Part shown: positions 1 through 8,100 of the stretch, piece after piece
Position numbering within the stretch: position 1 is the stretch's first letter
Layout: each line of letters opens with the position of its first letter
Source of the DNA: Symbiotaphrina buchneri
Taxonomy: Eukaryota; Ascomycota; Symbiotaphrinales; Symbiotaphrinaceae
DNA: 64,000 bases
Reading direction: 5' to 3'
Assembly (NCBI GenBank): GCA_001599915.1
Contig: BCIG01000011.1
Location: forward strand, 434,001-498,000
Position numbers and translations under genes: made by a program
Notes under the pieces: model-generated
Databases searched by the model: none
What the model was told of the DNA's origin: nothing
What the model saw: only the letters and a program-made list of their open reading frames with translations

Positions 1-1008
1 CTGTGGCCGAGCTTTCTGGATGTGTTCGAGGTTTGTAAACAATCAACTCGGAGGTGACGGAAGGGCTAACTGTACGACATCACAGACCAATCGGCCCTTC
101 TGGGAAGCAAGAGAAAGGCACGCAATGGCGCTGCCCTACTTTCATTTGGTGCAGTGATTGGAACTCCGGGTCTACATGATGGGTTGCATTTGCAGGAGCG
201 CGCGGCGTAGTCGGTGCAGGATTATTGGGCGTACACGGTTTGCAGCAAGGGGTCACGGACGTGCTGTGGCACCATAGGGTTGGACACTCTTAGTTCGTAT
301 CTCAAAAGTCCATTACTTCTTGATCAAAGCAAAGATACAGAGAACTTCGCTGTTGCTCCGGACACTTTGTCGTCGCTGTTGCGCTTGCCTTCCTGCTGAA
401 TTCCCTTTTGGGAATGTCTCCCAACCTCTCGGCTTATTCGACGGCCCACACGCCAGCCACCGTCTTTATCGGCCGTCCATTCAGTGAAGAAAGTGCGCAC
501 AGGCGGCAGAAGAAAACATGGAAGAGATGAATCTACAGCGCCAAGAATAAATATTTCATGTCAAAGGCTTATGGCCATGTCATTGTATTACTAATTCTAC
601 CTAAGTCCTAACTACTGTAGAGCATCTGCTGCGTGTAGACACTGAATAGTAAACTGCCATCATAGAAACCACTGCACATCACTTGACATTGTCAGCACAT
701 CCAGTAGAGGAAGACCAGGAGGCACAACAAGACTATAGTCGAGCTGGCCATCTGTGGAGGTGCACCGGCTGCAGTGGTTTCGAAGTACAGCAGTCGAGAA
801 GAGCGTTGCAATATCCTAATCAAACCGACGAGCACACCTGGGGCATAACAGGGGACAGCGAGCTTCGAGTGAGATTGAGAAGCGCCATCGAGCCGAAGTG
901 AATCCATGCAGTGCCATAGATCCACCATGAGCGACTCATCCCTGGGCGAGGACTGGTACCATGTAAGCAGGAATGCACTTGAGGCGGATATAACAATACT
1001 CACTCTGA
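1..1008. other. Left part of the MAT1-2 region, no gene recognised
   Basis: I see no convincing gene here. Short open frames on both strands have no recognisable family signature and no consistent splice structure. The stretch follows MAT1-2-1 and probably holds its 3' UTR: a good donor (GTGAGT on the minus strand near 1000) just after the alternative stop at 1009 hints at an intron in the 3' UTR. APN2 and COX13, the usual neighbours on this side of many Pezizomycotina MAT loci, are not visible and may lie outside the window. Confidence 0.5.
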
Positions 1009-2746: not shown

Positions 2747-3543
2747 ATGGCTTACACAAACGAAGGTTTCAGGCAAGAGTTGGACGACCTGCGCAAATCC
2801 TCAGCGACCTTTGACGATGAAGTGGTTGAGAAGCTACAGCGAATCCTCGAATTAGCAGAAAGCCACCCTCACCAGATCGAAACGCGTCCACATGAACCTC
2901 AGCACGATGGACAACCTATCACCATGAACCGAAATGTCACATTTGCTTGCAGTGTGGAGAGAGCCTTGCCCAGGCTTCGCGCTCTCAACACCTTGTACCA
3001 GGGTGAGCAGAAACTGGCACAGGAGTTGCTTGACTCTTTGAACAGCCGCCCGGTGAGAGAAGATGATACGGTAGAGGGACGCCATAACATGCATCGAGCT
3101 GCTGTTCGAAGTCTCATCCAAGTGTAAGGCAAGACCCGGGGGTCTTCTATCGCCAAGTTGACTGACCTGCCCCCAGACGCTCTGATGCCTTGACCCATGG
3201 CTCCGGGAACGTGCGCTCTTATCTAGACTATGCGGATGCAGACGCCAGGGATCTCTTTGAAGACTTCTTCGAAGTCTGCCAATCTCCGAACGACGCCGAG
3301 AAAGAGTTGCTTGCACGAGTGACGGGATTGGACATCCGCGTAGTCGACTCCTGGTGTAAGCATAACACCATAATGCCGACTGCTCCATTTATCTACTGAC
3401 TAGCAAGAACAGTCCAGACAAAGCGCGGACTAGTTGCTCCGTACTTCCTTGCCAGAACCGCGATCAGAAGAACAGGGCCACTGGCCGAGAAGATTCGAAG
3501 GGAGCGACGCGACATCCAAGGACAGCTCAGCGTGCATCCGTAG
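2747..3543 (+). CDS. Homeodomain-like protein encoded in the MAT1-2 locus
   Basis: Divergent from MAT1-2-1. I infer three exons, 2747-3123, 3177-3355 and 3413-3543, with introns GTAAGG...CCCCAG and GTAAGC...AACAG, giving 228 aa. The second junction splits a Phe codon and creates DSWFQTKRG, which no unspliced frame shows. With that Trp set to homeodomain position 48, the core positions fall into place: Phe16, Phe20, Pro26, Leu34, Ala35, Leu40, Val45, Trp48, Phe49, Gln50, Lys52 and Arg53. The normally invariant Asn51 is Thr. This suggests a DNA-binding or dimerising helix-turn-helix protein. A basic segment (IRRERRDIQG) follows. The N-terminal half is helical and unassigned. Other Eurotiomycete MAT1-2 idiomorphs carry an extra gene (for example MAT1-2-4 in Aspergillus fumigatus), but I cannot say whether this is its orthologue. 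The 3' end is uncertain: a plausible intron near 3559-3615 could extend the gene or lie in the UTR. Confidence 0.72.
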
Positions 3544-5185
3544 TAACACGCATGATCTTCAGAATGTAGGTATTTGCAACTCGCGGGAAGTGATATATAT
3601 GCTGACTATACTAGGACAAACAGCATGTCAGATGGCAAGGGGGTGAGAGCATTTCGAATGGTGGATGGCCAGTACCTTGAATATGGAGGAGCAGAAGAAT
3701 CTTAGGTCATTCCGAAGCACTGTACCTCATGAGTGCCAAGACAAATTGGCAATGATCATCCGCCTGCAAATTCTGTGATCCCAAGAGAGCCCTTTATACA
3801 TTCAGAGCCCATTTTCCAGGTGGATCTACCTCTGCAAACCAAGAATCGGACGGCAATGAGATCACTCACCTACTTGATCGCCACTGTGTTGGAGACCAGT
3901 CATCCAAACACTTCTCTCATGTGTACCTCGGGACCTGGAGCGAGGATTGGATGCGTCGTGCACATGCACCGCAGTCGTCCTCCTGCGATTCTGATACGGA
4001 GAGAGTTAGAGCTTTGGGCAAGCCTGGTGTGCATGCCGGCGCGTGTCCGCCCTCATAGGGATGCTTTGGTATCGGCTTCACGGGCAGTTACAGATGTGTC
4101 ATCGACTATACGGGCCTGGCGTTTCACGCGTCAGGCACCGCCCGCGAGTTGTTTTCATGTGGTAATGGCCGGAGGAAGGAGGAAGGGATGGATAGGTTCA
4201 GGCACGTCAGCATTGCAAACCAGCTGGACGAGGCATTCGATGAACACTCAGATAGGTAGTTTAGGCCCTCCGTAGAAATAACAAGAGAAAAGACACGAAT
4301 GTGTCCCAAAAAGCCAGTTCCCAAGGGCGCGATGATGCAGAGCATTGATGACTACGAGGCATGAAGTGCAAAGAACGTTTTGAGGCTCTACACAAGCGTC
4401 TTGGGAGGCTGCACTTCCATTAGCTCCCGGCAGTAGCACAAACCTAGTTCTCTGTACGAGGAAGGAGCGTACACGGACGCAAGGTGCCCACCATTATTGA
4501 TATCATCATCTACCGGACCTTACCTGAGGCAAGATTGATGGGAATTGATGGGTAGGGGTAGGCAGTGGGACAGATGGCAGAAAAGGATCCCCATGCACCG
4601 CCCAGTGGCCCAAAAGGGCACGGCGACTGTCAAAGCAAGCCAGGCCATTTGTGACCTTGGAGAGGTACCTAGGTACCTGTATGCTCGAACAGGATTCCCT
4701 GTTGGTGCTAGCTCGAGACTGTGCATGTACCTTCGTATAGGGAGCAGGTACGTACTCTTGGTACGTACTTTGGGTACTTCGGTACTTCAGGTACGTACTC
4801 TGGGTACGTACTTTCGATACGAACTTTGTGTACTTTGTACTCCGCACGCCGTAAGAGGAAGGGCCACAGGGCGATAATCGTGGTGGCTGGTGCTGTCAGC
4901 GATCCGCCCTTTTAGGATTCTGTCACGTGACCGCTGCGCCAGCACGGCATAGCTCCCGACAGCTGCACTCGCGGGACTGTGGCAAGCAGGACAGATTGGG
5001 AGGAATATTCTTGCTTGATACATCTACATCGATCCCTGTACGGTGGTGAGCGGCGGGTTGTCTCGATGGAGATTGCATACCACCCCCACGATAGCTTAGA
5101 CCATCCGTCCAGCTGCGATCCTTGACCTCACAGACTAGACAGACCAACAACACTAGAAGATCCCGTACACCATGCGACATGCCAC
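3544..5185. other. Intergenic between the MAT genes and SLA2
   Basis: A 180-codon open frame at 3733-4275 (+) has no recognisable motif. A second frame over the same DNA holds short plausible stretches, so an unmodelled downstream exon of the homeodomain-like gene cannot be excluded. From 4660 to 4840 the DNA is rich in GGTACC/GTACGTAC motifs (listed separately). Nothing else supports a gene. Confidence 0.5.
4747..4836. repeat. Imperfect tandem GGTACGTACT-type repeats
   Basis: About five degenerate copies of a unit of the form GGTACGTACTYTKG, or shortened to GGTACTTC, lie head to tail. The unit core GTAC is its own reverse complement, so the array could form small hairpins. A related AGGTACCTAGGTACCTG motif lies just upstream near 4664-4680. 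It sits in the spacer between the mating genes and SLA2. No function is known; a spontaneous microsatellite-like expansion is the simplest reading. Confidence 0.7.
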
Positions 5186-8100
5186 CTACTCTTGATAAGA
5201 TATCTTCCGCATCTCCCCAAGCCTCTGCCTTGCCTGCGCCAGACTATTCTCCAGTTGTAAGATCTCCACCTGTTGCTCCATCTCACGGACCTTGAACTCG
5301 TGTCCGCTAAGCTTCGAGTAATCCACAGCTTCGTGCTCATCCCGATTCCGCTCGCTAATGATATCCTGCACCAGTCGCACCAGGCTCCTGCATGCGTTGG
5401 TGACCGCCTTGCTCGCGCTCTCCAACCGGTCCTGGGTTTTTGACATCAGCGTGGCCTTGACCCGGCTCGCCGCGACCAATTGGGCCGTGCTGGCAGCAAC
5501 GTCGTTGCTCGCCACGATCAGCTGCTCAGGGCTATTACGTCCACTGATGACGCCGTCCGCCGTCTCGATGAGCATGTTGGTCGATGAAGCCACCGCTTTC
5601 GCAGCGCTGATGAGCCCTTCCGTCCACCGATTGTTCTTCTTGTAGAAAGCCGTCCGCGATGAGCTGCCTCGTCCTTCCTTGACGATTTCCTGTTGGGAAG
5701 CCGTTGCAGCCTTGATCAGTTGGGCAATCGCGTTGGTTACCGCGATGGCAGCCTCAAGGATGGAACTGCGACATGGTCAGTTTCCGCGGCCCGTGTTCGG
5801 GATGCAGGACTTACTCGTGGATCCGCAATTCATATGTGGAGTAATTGTCCCTCGGCTTGTTCATCAGCTTGGTCAGCCTCTCAGTAGCTGCGTCGATCGC
5901 GGCGGCGGCATTGGTCAGTTCCCGATCTACGAGATCGCCCAGGTCACCTGCCGCGTGGGTTATCTTAGAGCTCTTGGGCGCAAAGGTATCCACGAGTTTA
6001 GACAGTTTCTGTAGATTGACCTGCACGTCGTTATTGTTGTTGATGACAACGTCAGTCTTCCGCATGGGCTCCAGGCCGTCGAGCCGGAAGGACAGCAGTG
6101 CCCTAAAGAAAGTGACCGTCGATTGCGCCGATTGCCGCGCACTGTTAATCAGCTGATCGGCTTTCTTCTCGTCGGTTGCGAAACGCGTTAGTCCTTTGGC
6201 GTTGCTAAGTACATCAGCGATAGAGCCAGCGAAGACATTGACGGTGCGGATGATCTCTGCATGAGTGCTGTTAGGACCATCGGCTATGAAATTATTGAAG
6301 GCCGTGGAAAATTCCATTGCGCTCGACGAGGCCTTTTCGATCTGCGACAGGACGTAGGGAGCAGAGGCGTTCTGATTGCCGGCTTGCATGGGCGAATCGA
6401 GCTCGTACAGCGCGTCATCAACCCGTTGAACACCGCTCTGCAGCACCGAGTCTATGATGTCGTTGATCTTGTGGATATTATCCAAGACCAGCGTGTCAAT
6501 CTGCCCATCCAAGACTTGGTCCGCATCCTGATGGGAAAGCTTCAGCTCATTGAGCTCGAGCAATGTCTGATCCATGCCGGCTTTGAATATTTCGAGCTCT
6601 TCCTCCTTCTCTCGCAGAGCCCGTTCCAAGTCAGAGTCATGGTCTCCATATTTGGATTGTATCTCTTCTAATGCTCTTGTCTTATTTCGCAGCGCCTCCT
6701 CAAGGTCAGCCATTTCACGATTGTACTTAGACAGTAGCGATGACATCTCCGTTCCTTTCGAGCGTTCGGCATTATCTGCCCTTTCCAAAGCGAATCGGAG
6801 CTCCCTCTTGAGCTTCTCCACCTCCTCCTTGTTACCCCCTGCGAGTCGATCCTTCTCATGTAGGGCTCTATCCCTCTCCCGGATCATATCTGCCAATTCA
6901 AGGTTCTTGGTCTTGATTTCTCGTTCCAATTTTTCACGTCGATCAATTGCCTCCTGCGCCGAAGCAGCTTTCAGTTGCACTTGCTTGAATTTCTGAAGTA
7001 GCTCCAGATGCTCATGACGTAGCTGAGAGTATAATTTCGCAAGAGCTTCATACTTCGTTCTCCAGGTATTGACTTGCTCTGTAGAATGGTCAATTATCTT
7101 TCTCGTAAAATCCATACATGGAACTAACCTTGTAGTGCTCGGATCTGGTCATCTTTGGATCCTATCTGTTGGTTGAAGTTTGTATTCAGCTGGTTCAGCT
7201 CCGTCTCTAGTGCTTTGACTCTCTGCAAGATATGAATCAACTAAGGATCCAAAATCACGAGACGCGAAAGCTTACCCGGTCGTATTGCTCCAACATAAGT
7301 TGATCACGTTCATACTGTGCCCGGGCGGCGAGGTTTTCCCTCTCTAATTCAGCTAAGCGACCTTGGGTTTGCTGTTGATACTGTTCTCGTAGCAATTGCT
7401 CCTGCGCCATTCGTTGCTGCTCAGCCTGCAGCCGCTGTTGCTCTTCAAATTCCCGCTGCGCTTGTTGTTGCGCCAGTTGTTGTTGGTAAAGCTGGGCATC
7501 TCGTTGTTCTTGCAATCTCCTCTGCTCTGCTTCGAATTCATCCTGCTGCCGTCGTTGTTCATTTTTCCAGAACTCATTGATCGGTTCCGGATCGATGGCA
7601 GACGCCGCTCGCGGAGGCGTCGGGGTGGGCTGCGGCTCGATCTCCCGCGCTGGTCTCTGAGGTAATGCGGGCCTGTCTTCATCGTCCGCAAAGAGGTTCG
7701 GAGGATCTTGTGGCAGTTTGGGCACCGTGATGAGGCTCGTAAGGTAGCGGAGGTTCGAGCATTCATAGTAGAATTTGACGAGTCGATAATGCTGGGCATC
7801 ATAACGTGTACGAAGAGGTTCCAGTGCTTCATCATCGCCAGTAGCTGTTGAAATGTCAGCTGAAGTCCATCGGAGCAAACTCTGACTCGCTCACTCGTAT
7901 GCATTGCGCGCAACATGCTGGTAATGAACTTGTAAATGCCATAACTCTCTTGCACCAGCGGAACCAGAGACGAGATCCTGCATTCATTGTTCGCTCCGCT
8001 CCGGAAGCTGGAGAAGACCAGCTTTTGAAATGAATCGATTTGATCTTGAAGAGTCATGAGATCGGATATTGTCTCATAGCTAGTTGAAAGTGAGTACAAG

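Follow-up and report, generated by a model that had tools for sequence, protein, structure and literature searches.

The window, that is, the whole 64,000-nt stretch of the Symbiotaphrina buchneri genome that was analysed, contains a mating-type locus with two divergent mating genes. MAT1-2-1 lies on the minus strand and a three-exon gene on the plus strand, with 547 bp between their starts, which agrees with the arrangement described in an earlier reading of this DNA from its letters alone (the sequence-only reading). The pair has APN2 on one side and SLA2 on the other (Table 1). The frame adjoining the putative APN2 end, outside the window, matches PF03372, an exonuclease-type domain, with 43.6 bits, and a COX6A-like frame on the left side scores 19.9 bits, which is under the cut-off of 25. 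From this gene set we infer that the locus is a MAT1-2 idiomorph of the Eurotiales type. A search of the genome for the alpha box of MAT1-1-1 gave no match; as the control genomes likewise gave none, this result does not establish heterothallism.

The three-exon gene adjoins MAT1-2-1 in the MAT1-2 locus, and by position it is MAT1-2-4, a gene known from aspergilli and not a new one. The sequence-only reading had offered a domain identity for an accessory mating gene; the identity is backed by a profile match, but the gene itself is one already known by its position.

Two further observations concern the surroundings of the pair. On the minus strand, an acid-rich open frame (1009-1242) runs across the 3′ terminal part of MAT1-2-1 in a different frame, and the C-terminus of MAT1-2-1 (stop at 1136) may therefore depend on an additional intron or a change of frame. 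Imperfect tandem repeats of GTAC-rich 13-bp units lie at 4747-4827, in the interval that separates the mating genes from SLA2.

Table 1. Features of the mating-type locus and its borders, in window positions.
Feature	Position	Strand	Basis or remark
Open-frame end taken as APN2 3′ part; start outside window	1-154	+	Open frame; neighbouring frame outside window, PF03372, 43.6 bits
MAT1-2-1, 321 aa, HMG box	1136-2199 (exons 2199-2012, 1959-1661, 1614-1136)	-	PF00505, 81.1 bits
Intergenic region, 547 bp, separating the two divergent mating genes	2200-2746		Gene models
MAT1-2-4-like gene, exon 1 (codons 1-125 plus 2 nt)	2747-3123	+	Frame
Intron 1, 53 nt, GTAAGG...CCCCAG, CTGAC at 3162-3166	3124-3176	+	Splice motifs
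Exon 2	3177-3355	+	Homeodomain positions 1-48 coded at 3211-3354
Stretch aligned to PF00046, residues 152-190, model positions 14-52 of 57	3253-3426 minus intron 3356-3412	+	31.5 bits
Intron 2, 57 nt, GTAAGC...GAACAG, CTGAC at 3396-3400	3356-3412	+	Splice motifs
Exon 3, remaining recognition helix (F49 Q50 T51 K52 R53) and basic tail	3413-3543	+	Stop TAG 3541-3543
Possible intron 3, GTAGTA donor, GCTGACTATACTAG end, GCTGAC...TAG	3540-3614	+	Unproven; splice motifs and tail codon score
SLA2 3′ part, I/LWEQ domain; more frames of the gene to the right	5189-5776	-	PF01608, 213.1 bits

Gene model of the MAT1-2-4-like gene

When joined, the three exons can be read without interruption through 228 codons up to a stop. 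Both introns have a 5′ GTAAG and a 3′ CAG, and both contain CTGAC, ending 10 and 12 nt upstream of the intron end, which we take to be a branch-point-like motif. Intron 2 cuts the codon of Phe49 after its first base (phase 1). The codon scores of the proposed frame amount to 0.20, 0.30 and 0.23 bits per codon for exons 1, 2 and 3, respectively, in each case the highest of the six frames, and a coding signal is present in all three exons. The open frame, the intron ends and the codon score are consistent with the 3123/3177 and 3355/3413 junctions proposed by the sequence-only reading. When the 23.4-Mb, 82-contig assembly was searched with the whole protein, its own three exons were the only matches at E≤0.001, and exon 1 alone matches no Pfam family at E≤10.

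The C-terminus of the product is uncertain. The region 3540-3705 holds a candidate third intron and a coding-like tail downstream of the first stop. Removal of the putative intron would delete the stop and lengthen the product from 228 to 257 aa; the tail that follows scores 0.168 bits per codon, again the highest of the six frames.

The homeodomain match

The spliced product matches the Pfam family PF00046 (Homeodomain) with 31.5 bits, against a cut-off of 22.9, and an E-value of 1.6e-7 for one protein compared with 24,736 models. The alignment begins at model position 14, so that the N-terminal arm and the first part of helix 1 are not covered by it. The same product scores 19.2 bits with PF05920, below the cut-off of 24, and gives no match to PF11569 (Homez) at E≤10 in the Pfam scan. 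Of the two homeobox profiles that had been suggested as a check, it is therefore PF00046 that recognizes the protein. In addition, all twelve residues that had been listed as diagnostic, from Phe16 to Arg53, are found at the homeodomain positions assigned to them.

The score of the match depends on the proposed splice. Four of the 11 enumerated alternatives for intron 2, with acceptors at 3403, 3417, 3423 and 3433, were scanned and gave 20.6, 24.3, 20.6 and 25.5 bits to PF00046, those at 3417 and 3433 lying above the cut-off, while unspliced read-through of exon 2 gave 20.8 bits. The 3355/3413 junction has the highest score of the junctions tested and, as had been claimed, completes the domain. 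A whole-genome scan with PF00046 gave nine matches, among which exon 2 came seventh with 20.3 bits, a score under the cut-off because the scan ignores introns; in the corresponding PF05920 scan it comes seventh of seven with 15.7 bits.

Comparisons with other homeodomains point in the same direction. A phmmer search of the PDB with the C-terminal 88 residues returned 43 sequences at E≤10, the best being LMX1A (E 2.8e-5) and with yeast MATa1 at E 0.14. Nearly all of the 43 are presumably homeodomain proteins, and one is a TetR regulator. A local HMM was built from seven other homeodomains of the same genome together with yeast a1 and alpha2, with the MAT1-2-4-like gene left out. It gave 26.6 bits for the gene and at best 10.4 bits in 5,000 shuffles, 2,683 of which returned a score. 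The observation of a three-exon gene with a homeodomain match is confirmed, and the match is above chance.

In homeodomains, helix 1 lies at about positions 10-24 and helix 2 at about positions 28-38. Exon 2 alone, which ends at Trp48 and lacks most of helix 3, was modelled by AF2 from its single sequence, and the model contains helices at residues 12-16, 21-35 and 39-49 (mean pLDDT 70.6). The two long helices correspond to homeodomain positions 10-24 and 28-38 and the short one to positions 1-5; the start of helix 3 is not helical and no third helix is formed. With this truncated model Foldseek found a single match at E≤10, not a homeodomain, and none at E≤0.001. The single-sequence model of exon 1 is predicted to contain helices at residues 5-18, 24-39, 64-100 and 107-124 (pLDDT 67.8, pTM 0.42), and for this low-confidence model there were 22 Foldseek matches at E≤10 and none at E≤0.001.

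Contact surface, class and relatives of the domain

Homeodomain positions are given here as the residue number minus 137. The core residues at positions 16, 20, 26, 34, 40, 45, 48 and 49 (F, F, P, L, L, V, W and F) are kept, with Ala at position 8, and Q50, K52, R53 and the W48-F49 pair are retained. Positions 5, 47, 51, 55 and 57 of homeodomains touch DNA, and Asn51 is near-invariant. In the MAT1-2-4-like product position 51 is Thr, and the other contacts are Leu at 5 and 55, Ser at 47 and Ala at 57. Among the ten sequences compared (the gene and nine comparators, i.e., the homeodomains used for the local HMM), Asn51 is present in eight, the exceptions being the MAT1-2-4-like gene and a locus on contig C26, which has Lys. 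These two also share a net domain charge of -5; the remaining eight range from +3 to +9. The domain has neither Asn51 nor a basic DNA-contact surface and, given its Thr51, its charge and the residues at the other contact positions, it is not classed as a canonical DNA-binding homeodomain. With the core kept and the contact residues changed, the fold is probably retained, and autonomous DNA binding by the domain is doubtful. The proposal of a homeodomain mating regulator thus stands insofar as a curated profile is passed; the list of diagnostic residues had left off Asn51, other contacts are changed as well, and DNA binding is unproven.

TALE and MATalpha2 homeodomains carry three extra residues in the loop that links helix 1 to helix 2. 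The alignment shows no such insertion in the gene, so that the domain belongs to the typical class and not to TALE. The closest of the nine homeodomains compared is MATa1, with 32% identity over 53 positions, followed by a homeodomain encoded on contig C24 of the same genome (31% over 55 positions), whereas alpha2 reaches 14% over 56 positions. The nearer yeast match is accordingly MATa1 and not alpha2, the yeast example given in the sequence-only reading. In a ten-sequence tree with very long branches the gene groups with the C26 protein (support 64) and not with MATa1; the tree does not resolve the ancestry.

Several other homeobox or homeobox-like loci of the genome were noted. The C26 locus (G000:C26:463323-463424, L018) encodes an acidic homeodomain-like stretch with the motif WFYKQ and without Asn51, and its PF05920 score of 20.4 bits is below the cut-off of 24. 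Introns in the third-helix region, placed by eye, lie between positions 46 and 47 in L008 (C8:680010) and L006 (C24:328818), between 44 and 45 in L009 (C8:393157) and in codon 52 in L004 (C2:786663). Intron position lends no support to common descent with the MAT1-2-4-like gene, as none of these four genes has an intron in codon 49. A search for orthologs in a viral contigs collection gave five pattern matches and no relative.

Comparison with known mating genes and possible role

Yu et al. 2017 are said to have found that A. fumigatus needs MAT1-2-4 for mating. Strain Af293 of this species has two MAT1-2-specific genes, Afu3g06160 and Afu3g06170, the second of which encodes the HMG protein (PMC4409388); the first is MAT1-2-4, occurs in all MAT1-2 strains studied and is called essential for sexual recombination (PMC9714929, with reference to Yu et al. 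2017). Like the gene described here, Aspergillus MAT1-2-4 is an extra MAT1-2-specific gene beside MAT1-2-1, of about 240 aa (as in A. lentulus) and with several short introns. The A. lentulus gene has 242 aa and three introns (PMC3697472), compared with 228 (or 257) aa and two (or three) introns here, and its three introns are the reason why the putative intron 3 merits attention. Unlike the gene here, Aspergillus MAT1-2-4 has no domain stated in the literature covered, and the two are likened by position, not by sequence. In A. niger CBS 554.65 a putative MAT1-2-4 homolog is unique to the MAT1-2 region, where APN2 and COX VIa are also found; SLA2 differs in lying more than 12 kb from MAT, and the flanks vary among aspergilli (PMC8454179).

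The sequence-only reading had described Pezizomycotina accessory mating genes as being without domain assignment, which does not hold throughout, since a homeodomain leucine-zipper call (pfam11569) has been printed for MAT1-2 auxiliary genes of some lichens (PMC6414310). In the literature searched, this is the only source that gives Pezizomycotina MAT1-2 accessory genes a homeodomain, and it also reports that the auxiliary gene of Xanthoria parietina clusters with Aspergillus MAT1-2-4. The lichen genes are comparable in being accessory MAT1-2 genes with, in some species, a homeodomain-type call. They differ in lying between the MAT1-2 gene and APN2, whereas the gene here is on the SLA2 side, and in the pfam11569 call, for which the gene here has no match at the threshold used above. 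MAT1-2-14 is described as having no homolog outside Lecanoromycetes (PMC10512270). The hbx homeobox genes of Aspergillus, eight per species, share the homeodomain fold but are developmental regulators (PMC5666362, PMC7142095). In a term search, 'MAT1' was absent from the available text of three homeobox surveys (PMC11508405, PMC5666362, PMC7142095); the homeobox list of T. marneffei contains nameless proteins, among which an unrecognised MAT gene may be present (PMC11508405). No homeodomain assignment for an Aspergillus-type MAT1-2-4 emerged from the literature searched, although an earlier one may exist in Yu et al. 2017 or in protein databases.

Saccharomyces MATa1 resembles the product in its typical-class homeodomain and its mating-locus origin, but has Asn51 and a charge of +9 instead of Thr51 and -5. 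Yeast a1 works together with its partner alpha2, and in many yeasts the homeodomain gene a1 adjoins an HMG gene in the a idiomorph; the parallel between that idiomorph and the locus here is suggestive only. The HD1 and HD2 proteins of basidiomycetes are homeodomain mating regulators with variable N-termini, encoded by divergent HD1/HD2 pairs. They are likened to the present product by description, and differ in that the divergent neighbour there is an HD partner and here an HMG gene.

The best explanation, which we regard as fairly probable, is that the gene is MAT1-2-4 of a Eurotiales-type MAT1-2 idiomorph and that its product is a mating regulator acting via a partner. The N-terminal half of the product would be helical, and its C-terminal part would be a typical (non-TALE) homeodomain that is acidic and keeps the core residues. 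In mating the product may act at the level of transcription, and it would require a partner, which could be the MAT1-2-1 HMG protein or a TALE homeodomain protein from another locus, comparable to a1 and alpha2 in yeast. The helical N-terminus may serve as a dimer interface, and the protein's own contact with DNA would be weak or altered. The presumed role in mating is carried over from A. fumigatus MAT1-2-4 by position rather than by sequence.

Other explanations have to be weighed against this one. A chance resemblance or a decayed frame would be in keeping with the partial alignment to the model, but is very improbable in view of the E-value, the shuffle control, the splice-dependent gain in score and the coding signal in three exons. 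It is unlikely, too, that the product is an autonomous regulator whose domain binds DNA despite Thr51, with altered specificity, and controls mating genes directly. Such a protein would make use of the retained R53, Q50, K52 and W48-F49 and of the basic tail formed by residues 191-228 (eight K/R versus three D/E); it would have to do so with Asn51 lost, the other four contact positions changed and a net charge well below that of eight of the nine comparators.

Two explanations concern the origin of the gene. A recent capture or duplication of a homeobox gene of the genome, followed by divergence at the mating locus, has some plausibility, though not the greater part of it: the divergent contact residues and the long branch would be expected, and the C26 locus provides a second acidic homeodomain-like stretch without Asn51 in the same genome. 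Against capture, the whole protein finds only its own exons in the genome, and the phase-1 intron in codon 49 differs in position from the introns of the four other homeobox genes. A counterpart of MATa1 is rather improbable. The ancestral ascomycete a idiomorph would then have been a divergent pair of an HMG and a typical homeodomain gene, of which some Pezizomycotina kept both, the homeodomain now being partner-dependent and without Asn51. The pairing of a homeodomain gene with an HMG mating gene is the same as in yeasts, the class is typical, and MATa1 is the nearest of the nine sequences and is reached in the PDB search; yet the tree joins the gene to C26, and the C24 homeodomain is equally near. 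MAT1-2-4 is, moreover, reported to be missing from many aspergilli (PMC3697472), which also speaks against such a counterpart.

The homeodomain identity matters since MAT1-2-4, with its reported need in A. fumigatus mating, has an origin that is called obscure, with derivation from MAT1-1-1 as a speculation (PMC3697472). The alpha1 domain of MAT1-1-1 is assigned to the HMG-box superfamily (PMC2999568), and a homeodomain in MAT1-2-4 therefore argues against an origin from MAT1-1-1. The identity gives the MAT1-2-4 protein a testable molecular role, and it raises anew the possibility that an HMG gene and a homeodomain gene stood side by side in a single idiomorph of the mating locus in the ascomycete ancestor.
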